DNA from: Fusobacterium varium
GTDB lineage: Bacteria; Fusobacteriota; Fusobacteriia; Fusobacteriales; Fusobacteriaceae
Reading direction: 5' to 3'
NCBI GenBank assembly: GCA_900637705.1
Contig: LR134390.1
Coordinates: 2,108,001-2,172,000 of the forward strand
DNA length: 64,000 bases
Part shown: piece after piece, positions 46,669 through 57,853 of the stretch
How the letters are laid out: the number at the start of each line of letters is the position of its first letter
Numbering within the stretch: the first letter of the stretch is position 1
Made by a program: the position numbers and the translations under genes
Notes under the pieces: generated by a model
What the model was told of the DNA's origin: nothing
The model's input: only the letters and a program-made list of their open reading frames with translations
Database searches by the model: none

Positions 46669-46748
46669 GTTTAGAATCAAATATATTTTTTATTTTTTCA
46701 AATATGTGGTATCATATATATAAAGCTAAAAAAACGAGGTGGTTTAAT

Positions 46749-47987
46749 TTGGATTTCACTTTAAAATTAAAACAAGAAATGAAGCTTTCTCTGACACAAG
46801 AAATGAAAATTTCTATGAATATACTTCAAATGTCTTCATCTAACCTAAAAGATTTTATTGAAAAAGAAGCCTTAAAAAACCCAATGTTAGAAGTAACATA
46901 CTCTACTCCCTCATCTAAATATAATTCTGATGAAGAAACTACTTCACCTTTTGACTTTATTATTGAAGAAAAAACTTTAATTGACTTTCTAGAAGAGCAA
47001 CTTGGATATTTAAAAATTTCACCTAAAATAAAATCTATTTGTGAATATGTAATAAATAATCTAGATGATAGAGGATACCTTTCCATATCTAAATTAGAAA
47101 TAAAAAAAGCTCTTAAAATTTCTACAGCCCAACTGAAAGAGGCTATGGATATTATATATACATTAGAACCTGCTGGTATTGGTGCAGAAAATTTAAAAGA
47201 AAGTCTAAAAATACAGCTTATAACAAAAGATATTATTGATGAAAAGCTCTTTACCCTTATAGATGATTATTTAGAAGAACTAGGAGATAGAAAATATTCC
47301 CTCATAAGTGAAAAATTACATGTATCAGTTGAACAAATAGAAGATTATCTTGATATAATAAAATCATTGGAACCTATCCCTGCAAGAGGATATTTTGTAG
47401 GAAATAGAACAAATTATGTAGTTCCAGAAGCTAAAATAGAAATAGTTGATGATGAATTAACAGTTACATTAAATGAAGAAGCTATACCTAAAATAAAAAT
47501 AAACAGTTCATATAAATCTACAAATTCATTATCTGATAAAAATAATATGTATACAGCTATAAATCTGATTAAAAGTATTGAAAAAAGATATATCACTCTT
47601 GAAAGAGTTTTAAATCAACTTATAGTAAAACAAAAAAATTTCTTTTTTAGAGGAAAAGACTTTTTACAAACTTTAACTTTGAAAGATATAGCAAAAGAAT
47701 TAAATCTTCATGAATCTACTATTTCTAGAGCAATTAGAGATAAATTTATAGAAACTCCTCAGGGAATAATAGCTATAAAATCTCTTTTCATATTAAATTC
47801 TGAATGTCTTGAAATAAAAAAAACTATAGAAGAACTCATAAAATCTGAAAATAAATCTTCACCTTTATCTGATGAAAAAATATCCTTATACTTCAAAAAT
47901 AAAGGCTGTAGCATTGCCCGAAGAACCATAGCAAAATATAGAGAAGAACTTGGAATTCCTTCTACCAGAGAAAGAAAAAGAAAATAA
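46749..47987 (+). CDS. rpoN: RNA polymerase sigma-54 factor
   Basis: 412 residues from TTG 46749, chosen because GAGGTGG lies at 46736-46742 and the protein then begins 'DFTLKLKQEMKLSLTQEM', the normal Gln-rich region I. The core-binding domain and the DNA-binding domain follow, and the C-terminus carries the RpoN box 'RRTIAKYREELGIPS'. Sigma-54 needs an AAA+ activator; one is encoded at 51532-52872, and a matching -24/-12 promoter lies at 51299-51314. A palindromic element begins at its stop codon. Confidence 0.95.
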   Translation: MDFTLKLKQEMKLSLTQEMKISMNILQMSSSNLKDFIEKEALKNPMLEVTYSTPSSKYNSDEETTSPFDFIIEEKTLIDFLEEQLGYLKISPKIKSICEYVINNLDDRGYLSISKLEIKKALKISTAQLKEAMDIIYTLEPAGIGAENLKESLKIQLITKDIIDEKLFTLIDDYLEELGDRKYSLISEKLHVSVEQIEDYLDIIKSLEPIPARGYFVGNRTNYVVPEAKIEIVDDELTVTLNEEAIPKIKINSSYKSTNSLSDKNNMYTAINLIKSIEKRYITLERVLNQLIVKQKNFFFRGKDFLQTLTLKDIAKELNLHESTISRAIRDKFIETPQGIIAIKSLFILNSECLEIKKTIEELIKSENKSSPLSDEKISLYFKNKGCSIARRTIAKYREELGIPSTRERKRK

Positions 47988-48293: not shown

Positions 48294-48593
48294 TTAAATC
48301 TCCATCTCTAATAATGCTGAAGATAAGCTTTTTCCATGTTTATCTAATGCTAATGATCTTGTTACTCCCCCACCTAAAGCTTCGTCCATAACGAAGTTCA
48401 AAGCCCCTAAATTTGGTATTTCATATCTAACTACTTCCCCATGTACTATATCCTTAAAGTACTCTTTTACTTTTTCAGCAGTTACTTTTTCACAAATTAA
48501 TTTATAATCTTTTTCATCATAAACTATAAGAGAGATATTTGAAATATTTCCCTTATCTCCTGTTCTTGAATGAGCTATGTCTAATAATTTCAT
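48294..48593 (-). CDS. AtuA-like C-terminal domain protein, 99 aa
   Basis: The start ATG 48593 is right after GAGGAGG; a longer frame to 48644 lies inside the preceding gene. The protein 'MKLLDIAHSRTGDKGNIS' with 'LNFVMDEALGGGVTRSL' matches the small C-terminal domain found in many AtuA proteins. Here it is a separate subunit. It overlaps or abuts the stop of the AtuA gene (48595), so the two are coupled and probably form one complex. Confidence 0.85.
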   Translation of the reverse strand: MKLLDIAHSRTGDKGNISNISLIVYDEKDYKLICEKVTAEKVKEYFKDIVHGEVVRYEIPNLGALNFVMDEALGGGVTRSLALDKHGKSLSSALLEMEI

Positions 48594-48594
48594 T

Positions 48595-49947
48595 TTAAAC
48601 CTCCTCATACTTAACTTCAATTTTAATATCTTCTCTAGGAACAAATATAGAACATATTGAAACTACTTCACTTACGCTCTTAGTTACTCCACCACCACCA
48701 GATGGTCCATTAGTATAAAGAGTTTCCACTTCATTTACTATTTTAGTTGCTTCTGCTTTATTGACTGTTCTTCCTGCAACTCTTAATCTCACTTCTCCTA
48801 AAACAGATGGATCACATAGTTTTCTTCCAATAGTATCTCCATAAAGAGAGTTTACTCCTAAAAGATCTATTTTTAATTCTTCAAATTTTACCCCTGTATG
48901 TTCTAATCTTTTCTTAACTACTTCTCCTGCAAGAGCTGCTTTTGCATATGCTGTAGAGCCACCATAACTTATTCCAGCATCTCCTATAAAGCAATCTCTG
49001 TAACCAATACTTACTTTTAAAGTTTTTGGTTTCTCTTTACCAGTTGCACCAGTTAATAACACTCTATCTTTTCCTATTTCTTTTAATGAAATAGTTGTAA
49101 AATCAGCTACTCCATCAGGTGTCAAATAGTTTGCTGGGTCGTGTATCTCATAAATAAGCTGTTCTTTGCAAGTATGAGTATTTACAAGTCCACCAGTTGT
49201 TTCAGTTTTAGTAATTATTACTTCTCCATTTTCACTTACTTCAGCAATTGGGAAACCTACATTCCACAAATCTTTTACTTCATTATATCCAGGTACTGCA
49301 AAATATCCTCCACACACCTGAGCTCCACATTCAAGCAAATGTCCTATCATAATACCTTTTCCAATTAAATTATGATCATTTATATCCCAGCCAAATTCAT
49401 AAATTAATGGAGCCATAAATATTGCTGGATCAGCACAACGTCCAGTTACTACTATATCTGCACCATTTTTTAAGGCTTCTACTATTCCATCAGCACCTAG
49501 ATATACATTTGCAGATATTAATTTATCCTCTATATTTTTTAAAGGTACCCCTAATTCTAATATTTCACGATCAAGGTATTTTCCAAGATGTTCTGAAATA
49601 TCATCTCCTAACACAGCTGCCAATTTAAGATTTTTTATTCCCATAGATTCTGCCATTGATTTTATTTTCTTTATAGCACTTAGAGGATTAGCTGCTCCCA
49701 TATTAGTTATTACTTTTATTTTTTTCTCTGAACATATAGGAAGTATTTTTTCAAATCTATATTCCAACAAACCATTATACCCCTTGTCTGGGTCTTTTAA
49801 TTTTTCTTGCTGAGCTATAGCTATTGTTCTTTCTGCAAGGCATTCAAAAACTATATAGTCTATATTTCCATTGAGCATCAAATCTATAGCTGGTTCTATT
49901 CTATCTCCAGCATATCCTGCCCCTGAACCTATTCTTACTTTTTTCAT
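48595..49947 (-). CDS. AtuA family protein (DUF1446)
   Basis: 450 residues. N-terminal 'RIGSGAGYAGDRIEPAIDL' and the Gly-rich 'TNGPSGGGGVTKSVSEV' near the end are typical for the AtuA family (acyclic terpene utilisation). The biochemical role is not established; some members work with acyl-CoA carboxylase genes, which are absent here. It lies between a CitMHS-type carrier and its own C-terminal partner, in an operon driven by a sigma-54 promoter. A catabolic role for a carboxylic acid imported by the carrier is inferred. Confidence 0.88.
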   Translation of the reverse strand: MKKVRIGSGAGYAGDRIEPAIDLMLNGNIDYIVFECLAERTIAIAQQEKLKDPDKGYNGLLEYRFEKILPICSEKKIKVITNMGAANPLSAIKKIKSMAESMGIKNLKLAAVLGDDISEHLGKYLDREILELGVPLKNIEDKLISANVYLGADGIVEALKNGADIVVTGRCADPAIFMAPLIYEFGWDINDHNLIGKGIMIGHLLECGAQVCGGYFAVPGYNEVKDLWNVGFPIAEVSENGEVIITKTETTGGLVNTHTCKEQLIYEIHDPANYLTPDGVADFTTISLKEIGKDRVLLTGATGKEKPKTLKVSIGYRDCFIGDAGISYGGSTAYAKAALAGEVVKKRLEHTGVKFEELKIDLLGVNSLYGDTIGRKLCDPSVLGEVRLRVAGRTVNKAEATKIVNEVETLYTNGPSGGGGVTKSVSEVVSICSIFVPREDIKIEVKYEEV

Positions 49948-49966: not shown

Positions 49967-51247
49967 TTATCTATATAAAGCCCCTGTTATTATTGCCACT
50001 ATAAGCATTACTATTGTAGTTAAAAACGCATATGGAATTGTTTTCTTTTGATGTTCTCCTAACTCCACTCCTGTTAATCCTACCAAAAGGAATGTTGAAG
50101 CTGTAAGTGGACTTACTGGAAATCCAGTTGTCATTTGTCCTAATATAGCTGCTCTACCAACTGCTATTGCTGAACTTCCAAACTCCTGAGCTGTAGTAGC
50201 AAGGACTGGCATTACTCCAAAATAGAATGAGTCTGGATCAAACAGTAAACTTGCTGGCATACTGATTACCCCTGTAATGACTGCCATATAGCTTCCCAAT
50301 GATTGAGGAATTGTTTTTACTATAACTGTAGACATCTCTGTTATCATTCCAGATTTTTGCATAATTCCAATAAATGCTCCTGCTGCAAATAATATACTCG
50401 CCATCATGAGAGCTGCCTTTGCATGAGCATCTACTCTTTCTTTTTGTTCTTTTACAGATGGGAAGTTTATTACTATTGAAATACAGAAGGCAATCATAAA
50501 TACAACTGTTGGTGATAATTTTCCAGATACAAGAACCACTATAGCTACTATTATTGTTAAAATATTAACAACAAAGTTTCTACTTTTTTTCTTTTCTCCA
50601 AGATTATTTGTATCAATTTCTATTTCTTCTATATTCCCTATTCTTACTTTTTCATCTCTTCCAAGTTTAAAGGCTACAAAAAGAACAAATATTATCCCTG
50701 TTAAAACTGGTATAAGTAAAGGATTGAAAAGTTCTGTTACAGGTATTTTTAAAGAAGTTGCTGCTCTGATAGTAGGTCCTCCCCATGGAAGAATATTCAT
50801 TACCCCTGCTCCTAAAGCTACTATTGTTGCTAAAGTAGTTTTTCTCATTCCTAACGCTTCATAAAGTGGAAGCATTGCTGGAACTGTTACTAGAAATGTC
50901 ACTGCTCCTGATCCATCTAAGTGAACTATCATAGATAATATTGCTGTTCCAATTGCTATTTTTATTGGATCTTTTCCTACAACTTTTAAAATTTTATCAA
51001 TGATTGGCTGGAAAGTTCCTGCATCTGTAAGAATACCAAAGAATAAAATTGCAAAGATAAACATAGTACCTGTTGGAGCTATTGATTTTACCCCATCATT
51101 AATATACTTTCCAATATTTAATCCATGACCTCCTATAAGTGCTGTGATTACAGGTACAGATATAAGTGCTACTAATGGTGACATTTTCTTTGTCATTATT
51201 ACTGCCAATAGTACAATAATCGTTATAAATCCTAAAGCTGCTACCAT
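49967..51247 (-). CDS. CitMHS-type citrate/carboxylate transporter
   Basis: 426 residues with about 12 transmembrane segments. The pattern 'VHLDGSGAVTFLVTVPAMLPL' and 'PWGGPTIRAATSL' fits CitMHS (metal-citrate:H+ symporters), and 'DPDSFYFGVMPVL' is another conserved part. It is the first gene of the operon behind the sigma-54 promoter at 51299-51314. The substrate is likely a di- or tricarboxylate; the AtuA partners suggest something other than plain citrate. Confidence 0.85.
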   Translation of the reverse strand: MVAALGFITIIVLLAVIMTKKMSPLVALISVPVITALIGGHGLNIGKYINDGVKSIAPTGTMFIFAILFFGILTDAGTFQPIIDKILKVVGKDPIKIAIGTAILSMIVHLDGSGAVTFLVTVPAMLPLYEALGMRKTTLATIVALGAGVMNILPWGGPTIRAATSLKIPVTELFNPLLIPVLTGIIFVLFVAFKLGRDEKVRIGNIEEIEIDTNNLGEKKKSRNFVVNILTIIVAIVVLVSGKLSPTVVFMIAFCISIVINFPSVKEQKERVDAHAKAALMMASILFAAGAFIGIMQKSGMITEMSTVIVKTIPQSLGSYMAVITGVISMPASLLFDPDSFYFGVMPVLATTAQEFGSSAIAVGRAAILGQMTTGFPVSPLTASTFLLVGLTGVELGEHQKKTIPYAFLTTIVMLIVAIITGALYR

Positions 51248-51298: not shown

Positions 51299-51314
51299 AG
51301 CAATTTGTATGCCA
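51299..51314 (-). promoter_or_regulatory. Sigma-54 (-24/-12) promoter
   Basis: On the minus strand TGGCATACAAATTGCT, that is TGGCA-N6-TTGC with exactly 10 bases between the invariant GG (51313-51312) and GC (51301-51300). The start point is expected near 51288, about 40 bp upstream of the transporter ATG. rpoN and an AAA+ activator are both nearby. Confidence 0.85.
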
Positions 51315-51388
51315 TAATAAATATTTTCCATTCTTTTGCAATTTATAAGGATTTTTAAAATTTATTATAAATTATCCATATAACAAAA

Positions 51389-51525
51389 TTCTAATTTTTT
51401 AGAAATAAAAATCTGAGTGAATAGTTTTATTTCACTCAGATTAATATTTTTATATTCATAATATTCTCAAAGATTAATTTCTAATTTTTAGAAATTAATA
51501 TTGTTCTATTTCTAATTTTTTAGAA
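51389..51525 (-). promoter_or_regulatory. Three palindromic enhancer sites for the sigma-54 activator
   Basis: TTCTAATTTTTTAGAA occurs at 51389-51404 and again at 51510-51525, and a one-base shorter version TTTCTAATTTTTAGAAA at 51478-51494. The third is nested in a wider GTTCTA / TAGAAC pair (51503-51526). Relative to the predicted start near 51288 they lie about 100, 190 and 220 bp upstream, which is the classic range for bacterial enhancer-binding proteins. The adjacent activator gene is the likely binder. Confidence 0.75.
51411..51441 (-). terminator. Terminator of the activator gene
   Basis: Eleven-base perfect arms ATCTGAGTGAA / TTCACTCAGAT, followed on the minus strand by TTTTTATTTC. 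It ends the activator transcript and separates it from the sigma-54 operon; it sits between enhancer sites 1 and 2. Confidence 0.85.
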
Positions 51526-51531
51526 CAGCAT

Positions 51532-52872
51532 CTATTTTTCAAGTTTATTGTATAAAGTAGCAAGAGAAATTTCCAGTGCTTTAGCTGCTTTTTTCTTTCC
51601 TTCTACACTATCACCATATATTTCTATTACTTTTTTTAAATAACTCTTTTCTGCTTCTTTGACTACTTCACTAAGAGGAGATATATTATCATTTTCTTTA
51701 AGATTCTTTTTTATGGCTATTGGAAGATGCTCAGCTTTTATCTCGTTTCCTTCAACCATATTAAATGTAAATTCAATAATATTTTTTAACTCTCTAATAT
51801 TTCCCGGCCAGTCATATTCTTTTAAGACCTTTAAAGCATTCTCATTTAATTTTACTTCTTTTTTATATTTTATAGATAAATCCAAAAGAAATTTTTCAGC
51901 TATTGATTTTATATCATTCTTCTTTTCTCTCAACGGAAGTATGGATAAAGGCATTATTGCTATCCTATAATAAAGATCTCTTCTAAAAGTATTATCTTGT
52001 ATCATCTTTTCTAAGTTTTTATTGGTAGCACAAATCAACCTCACATCTATTGGTATCTCTTTTGAGCCTCCAATTTTCCTTATACTTTTTTCCTGAAGTA
52101 CTCTAAGAAGTTTCCCCTGTAATCCGTATTCAAGCTCCCCTATTTCATCTAAAAATAAAGTCCCTCCCTGTGCAAGTTGGAATAATCCTGTTTTTCCGTT
52201 TTTCTTTGCTCCAGTAAAAGCTCCTTCTTCATAGCCAAAAAGTTCGCTCTCTATGAGATTCTTTTCAAAAGAAGCGCAATTTACAGGAATAAATGGAAAA
52301 TCTTTTCTTGGACTTAAATTATGTATTGCACTTGCATAAAGTTCCTTTCCTGTCCCACTCTCTCCAGTTATCAATACATTAGAATCAGCAAGGGCTATTC
52401 TCTTAGCAAAATCTTTTACTTCTACACTTTTTTCATCTACAGCAATGATATCATCAAAACTATATTTTCCATTTCCTAATGTTTTTACATGCTCTTTTAA
52501 GTTTTGAATTATTATTTTAGAAAGATTAAGTTTTTCTGTAAGCTTATAGATATCTACCAATTCATTAAGAAGAGATATTCCTCCTATAACTTTCCCCTCT
52601 TCATAAATAGGTACCATATTTACAAGGTATTCTACTTCCCCCATCTTTCTGTGAGCTCCCAGTTCCATTTTTTCATTTTTCACTACATTTGTAAGTCTGC
52701 TTCCAGGACGTACTTCAGAAAGATATCTTCCTATTATATTTTTTTCTTCAACTTTTGTAATTCTTGTATAAGCTGGGTTTATATATCTTACTATCCCTTC
52801 CTTATCTATTATAAGTATTCCATCATACAGTGAATCAAATATAAGTTTTGCATGTCCTGTTATTTTTATCAT
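51532..52872 (-). CDS. Sigma-54-dependent activator with PAS domain
   Basis: 446 residues from ATG 52872 (GGAGAA upstream; a weaker start at 52884 is possible). A PAS domain is at residues ~10-115 ('YDGILIIDKEGIVRYINPAY'). The AAA+ domain follows with Walker A 'LITGESGTGKELYASAI', the sigma-54 contact loop GAFTGA ('EEGAFTGAKKNGKTG') and Walker B 'GGTLFLDEIGEL'. A Fis-type helix-turn-helix is at the C-terminus ('KKKAAKALEISLATLYNKL'). It has no receiver domain, so it senses a ligand directly. It is transcribed just upstream of the sigma-54 operon. Confidence 0.95.
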   Translation of the reverse strand: MIKITGHAKLIFDSLYDGILIIDKEGIVRYINPAYTRITKVEEKNIIGRYLSEVRPGSRLTNVVKNEKMELGAHRKMGEVEYLVNMVPIYEEGKVIGGISLLNELVDIYKLTEKLNLSKIIIQNLKEHVKTLGNGKYSFDDIIAVDEKSVEVKDFAKRIALADSNVLITGESGTGKELYASAIHNLSPRKDFPFIPVNCASFEKNLIESELFGYEEGAFTGAKKNGKTGLFQLAQGGTLFLDEIGELEYGLQGKLLRVLQEKSIRKIGGSKEIPIDVRLICATNKNLEKMIQDNTFRRDLYYRIAIMPLSILPLREKKNDIKSIAEKFLLDLSIKYKKEVKLNENALKVLKEYDWPGNIRELKNIIEFTFNMVEGNEIKAEHLPIAIKKNLKENDNISPLSEVVKEAEKSYLKKVIEIYGDSVEGKKKAAKALEISLATLYNKLEK

Positions 52873-52873
52873 A

Positions 52874-53671
52874 TTATTCTCCATTCCATATTTTCAAACT
52901 TTTATATCTCAATTCAAGCTTTTCTTCTGGAGTTTTTTTCCAGTAACCTTCATATAATCCCCCTTCCCAATCCCCATACATTGGATTAGGAAACACTATA
53001 TATTTAACTCCATATTTATCCTTAATTTTATCTACATATTCACTTCTTTCATTATTATTTTTCCCTCTAACTTCAGAATCAAAATCATTTAGATTATCTC
53101 CAAGAAGCATTACTATTTCATATCCATTTTTCTCTATCTGCTCTCTTCTTCCTTTTTTATCAGAACTCTCTTTCACTAATAAAAGTGTTTCTTCTGTTAC
53201 CTCTGGAAATCCTAAAGCTATTAAGTTTTCTTTTATTGCATCAAATTCTTTTTGTGAACGGTTGGATATATAGAACATCTTCCCGCCATTATCATTTATA
53301 TATTTAGAAAATTCAACTGCCCCTGGTACAGCCTCTGCTTCTTTTGCCTGAGCCCATTTATGCCAAGCTTCTGAACTGTATGTCACCCCATTTTTTATCT
53401 GCCAGCCTGCCATCTTTCCATTATCTATCAACGTTTCATCAAGATCAGCCACTACTGCTTTTACTTTTCCCTCTTTTATTTTCATATTATCAAAAGACAG
53501 CTTTGCTGTATTAAAAGCCTGATATACCAATGCTCTATACTCTCCCGACTGCTGCATCCAAATAGTTCCAAGCATCATTTGTTCAGTAAGTCTTTTATTT
53601 ACATCATTATTTGATTCCTTTCCAAATAAAAAACTTGTAACTATAAATAATCCCAAAATTATTTTTTTCAA
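52874..53671 (-). CDS. P4-type acid phosphatase / 5'-nucleotidase (HAD superfamily)
   Basis: 265 residues. HAD motif I 'VVADLDETLIDN' and motif IV 'MLLGDNLNDFDSE' are typical of the e(P4) class B/C acid phosphatases that dephosphorylate NMN and other nucleotides outside the cytoplasm. The N-terminus 'MKKIILGLFIVTSFLFGKES' is a signal peptide, but there is no Cys in the whole protein, so it cannot be a lipoprotein as e(P4) of Haemophilus is. It should be a soluble periplasmic enzyme. It is just upstream of the activator gene on the same strand. Confidence 0.9.
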   Translation of the reverse strand: MKKIILGLFIVTSFLFGKESNNDVNKRLTEQMMLGTIWMQQSGEYRALVYQAFNTAKLSFDNMKIKEGKVKAVVADLDETLIDNGKMAGWQIKNGVTYSSEAWHKWAQAKEAEAVPGAVEFSKYINDNGGKMFYISNRSQKEFDAIKENLIALGFPEVTEETLLLVKESSDKKGRREQIEKNGYEIVMLLGDNLNDFDSEVRGKNNNERSEYVDKIKDKYGVKYIVFPNPMYGDWEGGLYEGYWKKTPEEKLELRYKSLKIWNGE

Positions 53672-55871: not shown

Positions 55872-57853
55872 CTAATCTTTCAAATATTTTTCAAACCAGT
55901 TAGTCATTTCTTCAAGTCTTCTTACTCTATGTTTTGGTTTTCCACTTCTTGAAAGTTCATGATTCTCTCCTCTGAACATACAAAGTCTAGCTTCTACACC
56001 ATGATATTTTAAAGCTGTAAACATTTGTATTCCTTCAGCAAGCCAGCATCTATAGTCTTCTTCTGAATGAATAAACAATGTAGGTGTTTTAACCTTATCA
56101 GCATATTTCATTGGTGAATGCCACCACAATTTCTCCTGATTTATCCAAGGAGTTGAAGCATTCTGATCTGCGTTAAAATAATATCCAATATCTGTAGTTC
56201 CAAATTTAGATATCCAGTTGGCTATACTTCTTTGAGAAGCAGCACATCTAAATCTATCTGTATGTCCGATTATCCAGTTAGTCATATATCCACCATATGA
56301 CCCCCCTGTTACTCCTATTCTGTCTGCTTTAATTGGATATTTTTCCAATACTACATCTGTAAATTTCATTAAATCATCATAATCAATAGTTCCGTATTTT
56401 CCTCTGATATCAGCAAAAGCATTTCCTCTACCATCTCCACCACGAGGATTACAGAAAAATACAAAGTATCCCATATTTGCCCAAACCTGCATTTCATGAT
56501 AAAAAACTTCTCCAAATACAGTTTTTGGTCCTCCATGAATATCTAAAATAGCTGGATATGTTTTTGTTTCATCATAGTCTACAGGTTTTAATACCCAACC
56601 TTCTATTTCTATTCCATCATTTACAAAATTACATTTTTCAGGAATAGATATTTTTTATCTGTATATATATTTTCATTAAATTTAGTAATTTGAGTTTCTT
56701 CTCCATCTTTTAAACTATATATTTCTTGAAGTTTGATCCCTCTAAGTCCAGCAAAAAGAATTTCATTTCCATGCACATCATATACATCTACTGATCCATC
56801 AGCTTTAGTAAGCACTGTTTCATTTCCAGCAAGGTCTATGGTATTCAAAAAAGAATCTTTAAATACAGTAGTTGGGAAATACAATTTTCCATTAGCTACT
56901 CTATAACTTTTTCCTCCTCCATATCTACAATCTGAACCAACAGTATTTGCCATCCATGTATCATGTTTTTTCAATAATTCAACTTTTCCATTTTTAATGA
57001 TATAAAAACTAGGATTTTGATTCATTCCATATTCTTTACAATCATTTAAGGCACATATAACTGTATCTTCTAAAAATTCAGCAAAAGTTACTCTGAAGTT
57101 AGCATCTATTGGAAGAAGAGTTTCTGTTGTTTTAGAAGCTATATCATAACAAAATATTCCTTCTCTCTGCTCTAATTTTCCTTCAAATAAATTTCCAACA
57201 TAAAGTACTTTTCCATCTTTGTATGAGAAATATGTTACAACTGTATGTTCACAACTCAATGGTGTAACTTCATTAGAAATTCTATTATACAGATAAAGTC
57301 TATTTCTTTTCTGATTAGTAAATCCTCCACCATTGCTCCAGAAAGGAATTTCGTCAAGAACTTCATAATCTTTCTCCTCTTTTAACTTTGCAACAGCTTT
57401 ACTTCTTTCTTCTCCAGTTAGCTCATTTAAATTGATTCCATAATTATCATATTGAGCAGTGAGAACAAAATTATCTTTATCTATCATTTTTATAGAAGTA
57501 ACCAAAAGAGGAATCTGCATATATTTATCAGCTTCTCCTCCATTGATATCTATTGAATAGTAAGCAGTCCATTTTTCCCCTTGACTAACTTTTTCTCTTA
57601 ATTTAGCATCTCTCGAAGCTGGAAAAATAATTGTTGAGTTATCTATCCATAAGAATGACTTTTCTTCATTTAAAGAAGTCAGCTTAGAATATTTTTTAGT
57701 TTTATTGTTTAGAAGCCAGATATTAGATTGATAATTGTTATCATCATAATTTGTAGTGTGTACTACAAAACCTGCATTTTCCCCATTTGGTGAAAATTCA
57801 AGATTAGAAAGATACTTGTAGTCTAAAAAATCTTTTAATTTTAGGTTTTCCAT
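55872..57853 (-). pseudogene. S9 family (prolyl oligopeptidase-type) peptidase, frame broken at an A6 run
   Basis: Both frames together encode about 660 residues. The N-terminal part (57853 to 56621) is the beta-propeller. The C-terminal part is the alpha/beta hydrolase domain with the Ser nucleophile in 'GVTGGSYGGYMTNW', Asp in 'HSEEDYRCW' and His in 'RGENHELSRSG'. The break is in T6 56651-56656 (A6 on the coding strand); with seven A the reading continues as 'DKKISIPEKCNF...' into the hydrolase. It cleaves peptides or acylated amino acids. As written only the propeller would be made; a sequencing error is the simpler explanation. The start ATG has GGAGG. Confidence 0.88.

Follow-up and report, generated by a model that had tools for sequence, protein, structure and literature searches.

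A dedicated sigma-54 enhancer circuit very probably (probability of approximately 0.9) controls a CitMHS-AtuA-AtuA_ferredoxin operon of Fusobacterium varium: the activator encoded by the adjacent gene would bind DNA dyads upstream of the operon and drive its expression, which would enable the uptake and cleavage of an acid. The claim of an earlier note on this DNA, that a sigma-54 promoter and activator-specific palindromes precede the operon, is supported by conservation across two phyla, and from sequence we infer the binding of the activator and the dependence on sigma-54.

Organization of the locus

The window, by which we mean the whole analysed stretch of 64,000 nucleotides, contains on its minus strand, in this order, the genes of an acid phosphatase and an activator, three dyads, a -24/-12 element, and the CitMHS, AtuA, and AtuA_ferredoxin genes. 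The rpoN gene is located beyond them on the plus strand.

52874-53671, minus strand: acid phosphatase, lipoprotein e(P4)-type, adjoining the activator gene
51532-52884, minus strand: activator (bEBP) with a PAS domain, an AAA+ sigma-54 interaction domain with GAFTGA, and a putative C-terminal helix-turn-helix
51510-51525, no strand assigned: distal putative enhancer dyad (TTCTAA-N4-TTAGAA), which begins shortly after the activator stop codon, 211 bp upstream of the -24 element
51479-51493, no strand assigned: middle putative enhancer dyad TTCTAA-N3-TTAGAA, 15 bp, approximately 32 bp (3 helical turns) from the distal dyad
51405-51442, minus strand: likely intrinsic terminator of the activator gene, stem AATCTGAGTGAA/TTCACTCAGATT and then TTTTTATTT, between the middle and proximal dyads
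51389-51404, no strand assigned: proximal putative enhancer dyad (TTCTAA-N4-TTAGAA), which begins 90 bp upstream of the -24 element
51299-51314, minus strand: sigma-54 promoter TGGCATACAAATTGCT, a near-consensus -24/-12 element (-24 GG, -12 GC)
49967-51247, minus strand: CitMHS-family carrier, first gene of the operon (Pfam CitMHS 4.4e-34; TIGR00784 429.9 bits)
48595-49947, minus strand: AtuA-family protein, likely large subunit of a tertiary-hydroxy-acid lyase (Pfam AtuA 1.3e-157)
48294-48593, minus strand: AtuA ferredoxin-like domain protein, likely small lyase subunit (Pfam AtuA_ferredoxin 1.7e-37)
46704-47987, plus strand: rpoN (sigma-54), intact (TIGR02395 346.8 bits, cut-off 277)

The score of the carrier is above the TIGR00784 cut-off of 259.7, and its family includes citrate:proton symport. 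The AtuA protein reaches 525.5 bits with PF07287 (cut-off 22.8) and its AtuA_ferredoxin partner 128.6 bits (cut-off 27). The listed open reading frame of the partner has a TTG start and extends to 48644, while the ATG at 48593 (MKLLDIAHS) fits the orthologs, as judged by comparison with loci L028 and L053.

Predicted sigma-54 promoter

The exact GG-N10-GC spacing previously proposed upstream of the CitMHS and AtuA genes is present in the element TGGCATACAAATTGCT, which differs from the Clostridiales sigma-54 consensus TTGGCATNNNNNTTGCT only in its leading T (PMC6615313). Transcription is expected to start at approximately 51288, and the ATG of the CitMHS gene follows about 41 nt further on at 51247, preceded by GGGAGGAAAAT. 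In the genome scan for -24/-12 promoters that the earlier note had called for, the strict form of the pattern has 11 matches in the 3.30 Mb F. varium genome and none in the reversed control. Most of the 11 sites adjoin one of the 13 uninterrupted activator genes of the genome, so that F. varium has about ten circuits of this type, the CitMHS-AtuA locus among them. The core of the element is invariant, except for C/T at two positions, across 19 orthologous promoters, which were found with a pattern already fixing most of the core letters.

It is extremely unlikely that a sigma-70 promoter drives the operon and that the -24/-12 element is a relic. Sigma-70-like matches do occur at 51341-51314 and 51299-51271, but the region has about as many such matches as its shuffles (35 versus 32), whereas the -24/-12 element is kept before the CitMHS gene in all loci with the activator and its strict pattern is absent from the reversed control. 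With sigma-70-like sites this frequent, a second promoter in the region is possible.

Two further sites of the F. varium genome were recorded. A strong -24/-12 element at G000:C1:114139-114154 has no activator gene within approximately 15 kb. An apparently broken sigma-54 activator gene is located at G000:C1:2973540-2974042 (L025, L026), where the AAA+ match is spread over two frames and a stop codon interrupts one of the stretches.

Putative enhancer dyads

The three dyads are located 75-211 bp upstream of the -24/-12 element, between the activator stop codon and the CitMHS gene. The earlier description of three near-identical palindromes holds for their presence and positions, but the formula TTCTAAT(5-6)AGAA is better written as TTCTAA-N4-TTAGAA, with N3 in the middle dyad. 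The middle dyad is 16 bp long in the closest orthologs, and the distal dyad is conserved in L059-L062.

Single dyads carry little information in this AT-rich genome. The loose pattern TTCTAATN{4,8}AGAA alone is not significant in the window (4 matches versus 2.26 expected), and single copies of TTCTAAN4TTAGAA are at chance level in the F. varium genome (5 versus 5 in the reversed control), as are single perfect dyads in five genomes of the genus. A genome scan with the lone palindrome, previously suggested as a test of the regulon, is therefore unusable, and only clustered dyads are informative. The dyad is absent from the ten other strong sigma-54 promoters of the F. varium genome.

The 300-bp regions upstream of the orthologous -24/-12 elements contain 37 perfect dyads, distributed over 18 of the 19 regions, one of which belongs to contig L030 that ends before any activator gene; 1000 dinucleotide shuffles of these regions averaged 0.019 and never exceeded 2. 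The distant ortholog L063 yielded just a dyad with one mismatch. A composite search for a dyad, a gap of 52-82 bases, and the promoter, with no protein in the query, matched four of the 98 genomes of the phylum once each, always at the CitMHS-AtuA locus: the hits are the F. varium locus and three orthologs, nothing else, and the reversed control gave none.

The palindromes could alternatively act as RNA hairpins within the 3'-terminal part of the activator transcript, affecting its termination or stability, rather than as protein-binding sites. The dyads of the window follow the activator stop codon, either ahead of the likely terminator or shortly past it, and RNA folding of the region is strong (z -5.78), but any DNA palindrome folds as RNA. 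The terminator itself is supported by its sequence and RNA fold, and a consensus terminator scan did not list it. A dyad of C. drakei (L053) lies approximately 2.4 kb beyond the activator, with a gene for 667 residues intervening, and a second one precedes a second -24/-12 element between the CitMHS and AtuA genes. The activator gene is divergent in L063 and L082, which places the dyad outside its 3' end. In nearly all loci, the dyads are about 55-230 bp from the promoter. The dyads thus track the promoter rather than the end of the activator gene, which favours DNA binding; a role as RNA is very unlikely.

The two distal dyads are separated by 29-32 bp (3 turns) in most loci and by 20-21 bp (2 turns) in four, so that two activator dimers bound to them would share one face of the DNA. 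Members of the genus differ in the distance from the middle to the proximal dyad, which shifts from 89-90 bp to 111 bp or 68 bp; these changes of +21 and -22 bp each correspond to about two turns. Strict helical phasing of all three sites was rejected, because the distance to the proximal site, counted in turns, is not constant across all loci; phasing fits only the distal pair and the changes within the genus. The spacing thus fits a protein bound on one face of the DNA, with few independent events behind this agreement.

Conservation of the module

Close orthologs of the activator are encoded in four of 11 other genomes of the genus, and a relative with 44% identity occurs in another genus of the family. 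A search with AtuA brought in 30 loci from named genomes. The activator-bearing module is present in Clostridium homopropionicum, Tissierella, Sedimentibacter, Alkalihalobacillus, Pseudalkalibacillus, uncultured Firmicutes, and C. drakei. Wherever an activator ortholog was found, the CitMHS, AtuA, and AtuA_ferredoxin genes follow, with a -24/-12 element before the CitMHS gene. Fifteen AtuA loci without a detected activator, mostly from Bacteroidota, have neither the dyad nor the -24/-12 promoter. The activator, dyads, and -24/-12 element thus co-occur across two phyla and are missing together; these elements, their conservation, and their co-occurrence are read from the sequence itself.

Variants of the arrangement were also noted. 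The Bacteroidota loci L039, L041-L043, L046-L049, L052, and L054 contain CitMHS-AtuA-AtuA_ferredoxin without the activator or sigma-54 element, and several adjoin esterase genes. C. drakei has two -24/-12 elements with dyads (L053:5247 and L053:6934), one before CitMHS and the other before AtuA-CoA transferase-thiolase. Just upstream of the module of Sedimentibacter saalensis, the region L050:252-3733 contains a further activator, a -24/-12 element, and a LeuC/LeuD-like pair.

Activator and its specificity

The PAS-AAA+ protein with GAFTGA that had been reported as the next gene was found at 51532-52884 on the minus strand. It matches Pfam Sigma54_activat (PF00158, 6.5e-68) and PAS (7.6e-9), contains GAFTGA, and has a PAS fold. 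Its C-terminus ends ...GKKKAAKALEISLATLYNKLEK. The Fis-type HTH PF02954 was not reported at E <= 1e-3, but the C-terminus aligns up to residue 449 with the full-length NtrC-family chain 4l4u, and the end is conserved and HTH-like. Among 16 aligned orthologs, the recognition helix ISLATLYNK shows almost no change, with T-F-Y in place of T-L-Y once, in L062, and it differs from the ends of the other F. varium activators whose ends were read.

The best NCBIfam match of the activator is PrdR, the activator of proline reductase (NF041552), which has the same domain order over the matched part. The identification as PrdR was rejected: the score of 419.9 bits is below the cut-off of 795, and the PrdR sites reported in PMC6615313 are of the TGT-N10-12-ACA type.

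The F. varium genome encodes several activators, and the one nearest by recognition helix, that of L012, has the very similar sequence ISLATLYRK. This raises the prospect of cross-regulation, in which the dyads would be bound by another of the roughly 13 activators of the genome instead of the adjacent one. However, the divergent promoter region of the L012 activator gene contains another dyad, TTCTCA-N3-TGAGAA, in two copies, and the dyads of the CitMHS-AtuA locus are present or absent together with the adjacent activator across two phyla. Cross-regulation is thus a most improbable explanation. The pair of TTCTCA-N3-TGAGAA dyads recurs in three related genomes, twice in one of them, and in the F. 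varium genome and three of four relatives the dyad occurs only as pairs 86-89 bp apart. The N/R difference between SLATLYNK and SLATLYRK is a candidate specificity residue, as judged from sequence comparison, and the two activators paired in one genome (SLATLYNK/TTCTAA and SLATLYRK/TTCTCA) allow a simple test of the residue that sets specificity.

The region L076:7000-7300 (G000:C1:99092-99192) itself resembles a second sigma-54 circuit, with the ISLATLYRK activator, a pair of TTCTCA-N3-TGAGAA dyads spaced by 86 bp, and, divergently oriented, the element TTGGTATGGTTTTTGC.

Relationship to rpoN

The earlier note had counted the nearby rpoN gene as part of a complete circuit. The gene is indeed intact and located 3.3-4.6 kb away, but the link was overstated, since this closeness is found only in part of the genus. 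In F. varium, rpoN is approximately 3.3 kb from the promoter, and it is similarly close in genomes G026 and G027; in G025 it is further off, about 7 kb past the operon, and in G028 it is on another contig. All nine genomes searched have a TIGR02395 match above the cut-off, three members of the genus that were searched carry rpoN without a close activator ortholog, and rpoN is absent from the Firmicutes locus stretches compared. By this sequence comparison, rpoN is a lineage-specific neighbour that does not belong to the module, even though its product is presumably required at the promoter.

Function of the operon

The predicted structure of AtuA (mean pLDDT 91) matches citramalate lyase in complex with ADP and pyruvate (9evf) with a Z-score of 32.3 and an rmsd of 3.6 over 402 residues; 9evf was the sole full-length match in the structure list searched. 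A profile search with AtuA finds 9erq, CmlA (1.2e-5). The similarity of the model to 9evf makes an organic acid with a tertiary hydroxyl group the probable compound that is imported and cleaved through the operon. AtuA shares the fold of CmlA (9erq, 9evf), but the sequence identity to the solved lyase is only about 16%, and therefore the substrate may differ.

In the degradation of naphthalene, the AtuA-like lyases ThnQ/ThnS are reported to split an acyl-CoA that has a tertiary hydroxyl group (PMC12016498); their substrate is thus a CoA thioester. AtuA of F. varium is encoded beside the small AtuA_ferredoxin protein. In enterobacteria, a DUF1446 gene adjoins mesaconase and methylaspartate-pathway genes (PMC4682846). 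Our literature searches found no direct literature on CmlA or on DUF1446 with sigma-54.

In C. drakei and C. thailandense, the module is followed by CoA transferase and thiolase genes, which would fit the formation of acetoacetate from 3-hydroxy-3-methylglutarate, whereas the aconitase-family gene pair upstream of the module in S. saalensis (family assigned by eye) would fit citramalate or dimethylmalate. Because of these differing neighbours, the substrate is a guess within one chemical class, with citramalate, 3-hydroxy-3-methylglutarate, and citrate as candidates.

Proposed mechanism

The PAS domain may sense a ligand, upon which the activator would assemble on the TTCTAA-N4-TTAGAA dyads upstream of the CitMHS-AtuA-AtuA_ferredoxin operon. 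The distal pair of dyads, 2 or 3 turns apart, would present two dimers on one DNA face and could seed a ring-forming assembly, to which the third, proximal dyad would add. The assembled activator may then remodel the RNA polymerase-sigma-54 complex held at TGGCATACAAATTGCT so that the promoter opens. The operon would import a tertiary-hydroxy di- or tricarboxylic acid, which the AtuA-type two-subunit lyase would presumably cleave. We infer the activation step, the ligand, and the substrate.

Comparison with known regulons

The CitMHS-AtuA circuit is a standard bEBP regulon. It shares with the Clostridiales regulons described in PMC6615313 a PAS-AAA+ one-component activator adjoining a single target operon, the consensus TTGGCATNNNNNTTGCT, and multiple enhancer sites, mostly 100-250 bp upstream. 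That study (Nie et al. 2019, PMC6615313) covers the sigma-54/bEBP regulons of 57 Clostridiales species, with Fusobacteria not among them. It lists CitP, whose motif differs from TGT-N-ACA, as controlling citA in Clostridium, Alkaliphilus, and Geosporobacter, with citA annotated as 'Transporter'. The CitMHS target fits the citA transporter, whereas the main table of the study lists no AtuA; the circuit is possibly the CitP-citA regulon of Clostridiales. The extension to Fusobacteria and Bacilli and the link to AtuA were not found in the literature searched, and sigma-54 regulation in Fusobacteria seems to be little described in the open literature searched.

We speculate, as a doubtful proposal with the odds against it, that the locus represents an unrecorded regulon of Fusobacteria, Clostridia, and Bacilli with a new bEBP specificity class (TTCTAA-N4-TTAGAA with SLATLYNK, versus SLATLYRK for TTCTCA-N3-TGAGAA), which would control the anaerobic uptake and CoA-independent AtuA-type cleavage of a tertiary-hydroxy acid, for example 3-hydroxy-3-methylglutarate. 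The locus gives a concrete cross-phylum putative binding motif for one activator family and ties it to AtuA-type lyases, a widespread family with mostly unassigned substrates. The inducing acid, if found, would show at once what the PAS domain senses and what the lyase cleaves.

Other observations at the locus

The last 11 bases of the acid phosphatase gene (window 52874-52884, minus strand) also belong to the activator gene. This overlap is kept in the relatives L079, L081, and L060 but not in L080, and therefore the two genes are probably co-transcribed only in part of the genus. At positions 55872-57853 of the window (minus strand), a peptidase-like gene is split by a frameshift, real or due to a sequencing error, into frames of 410 and 206 codons; its counterpart in G027 (L079:904-2886) is a single frame of 660 codons.
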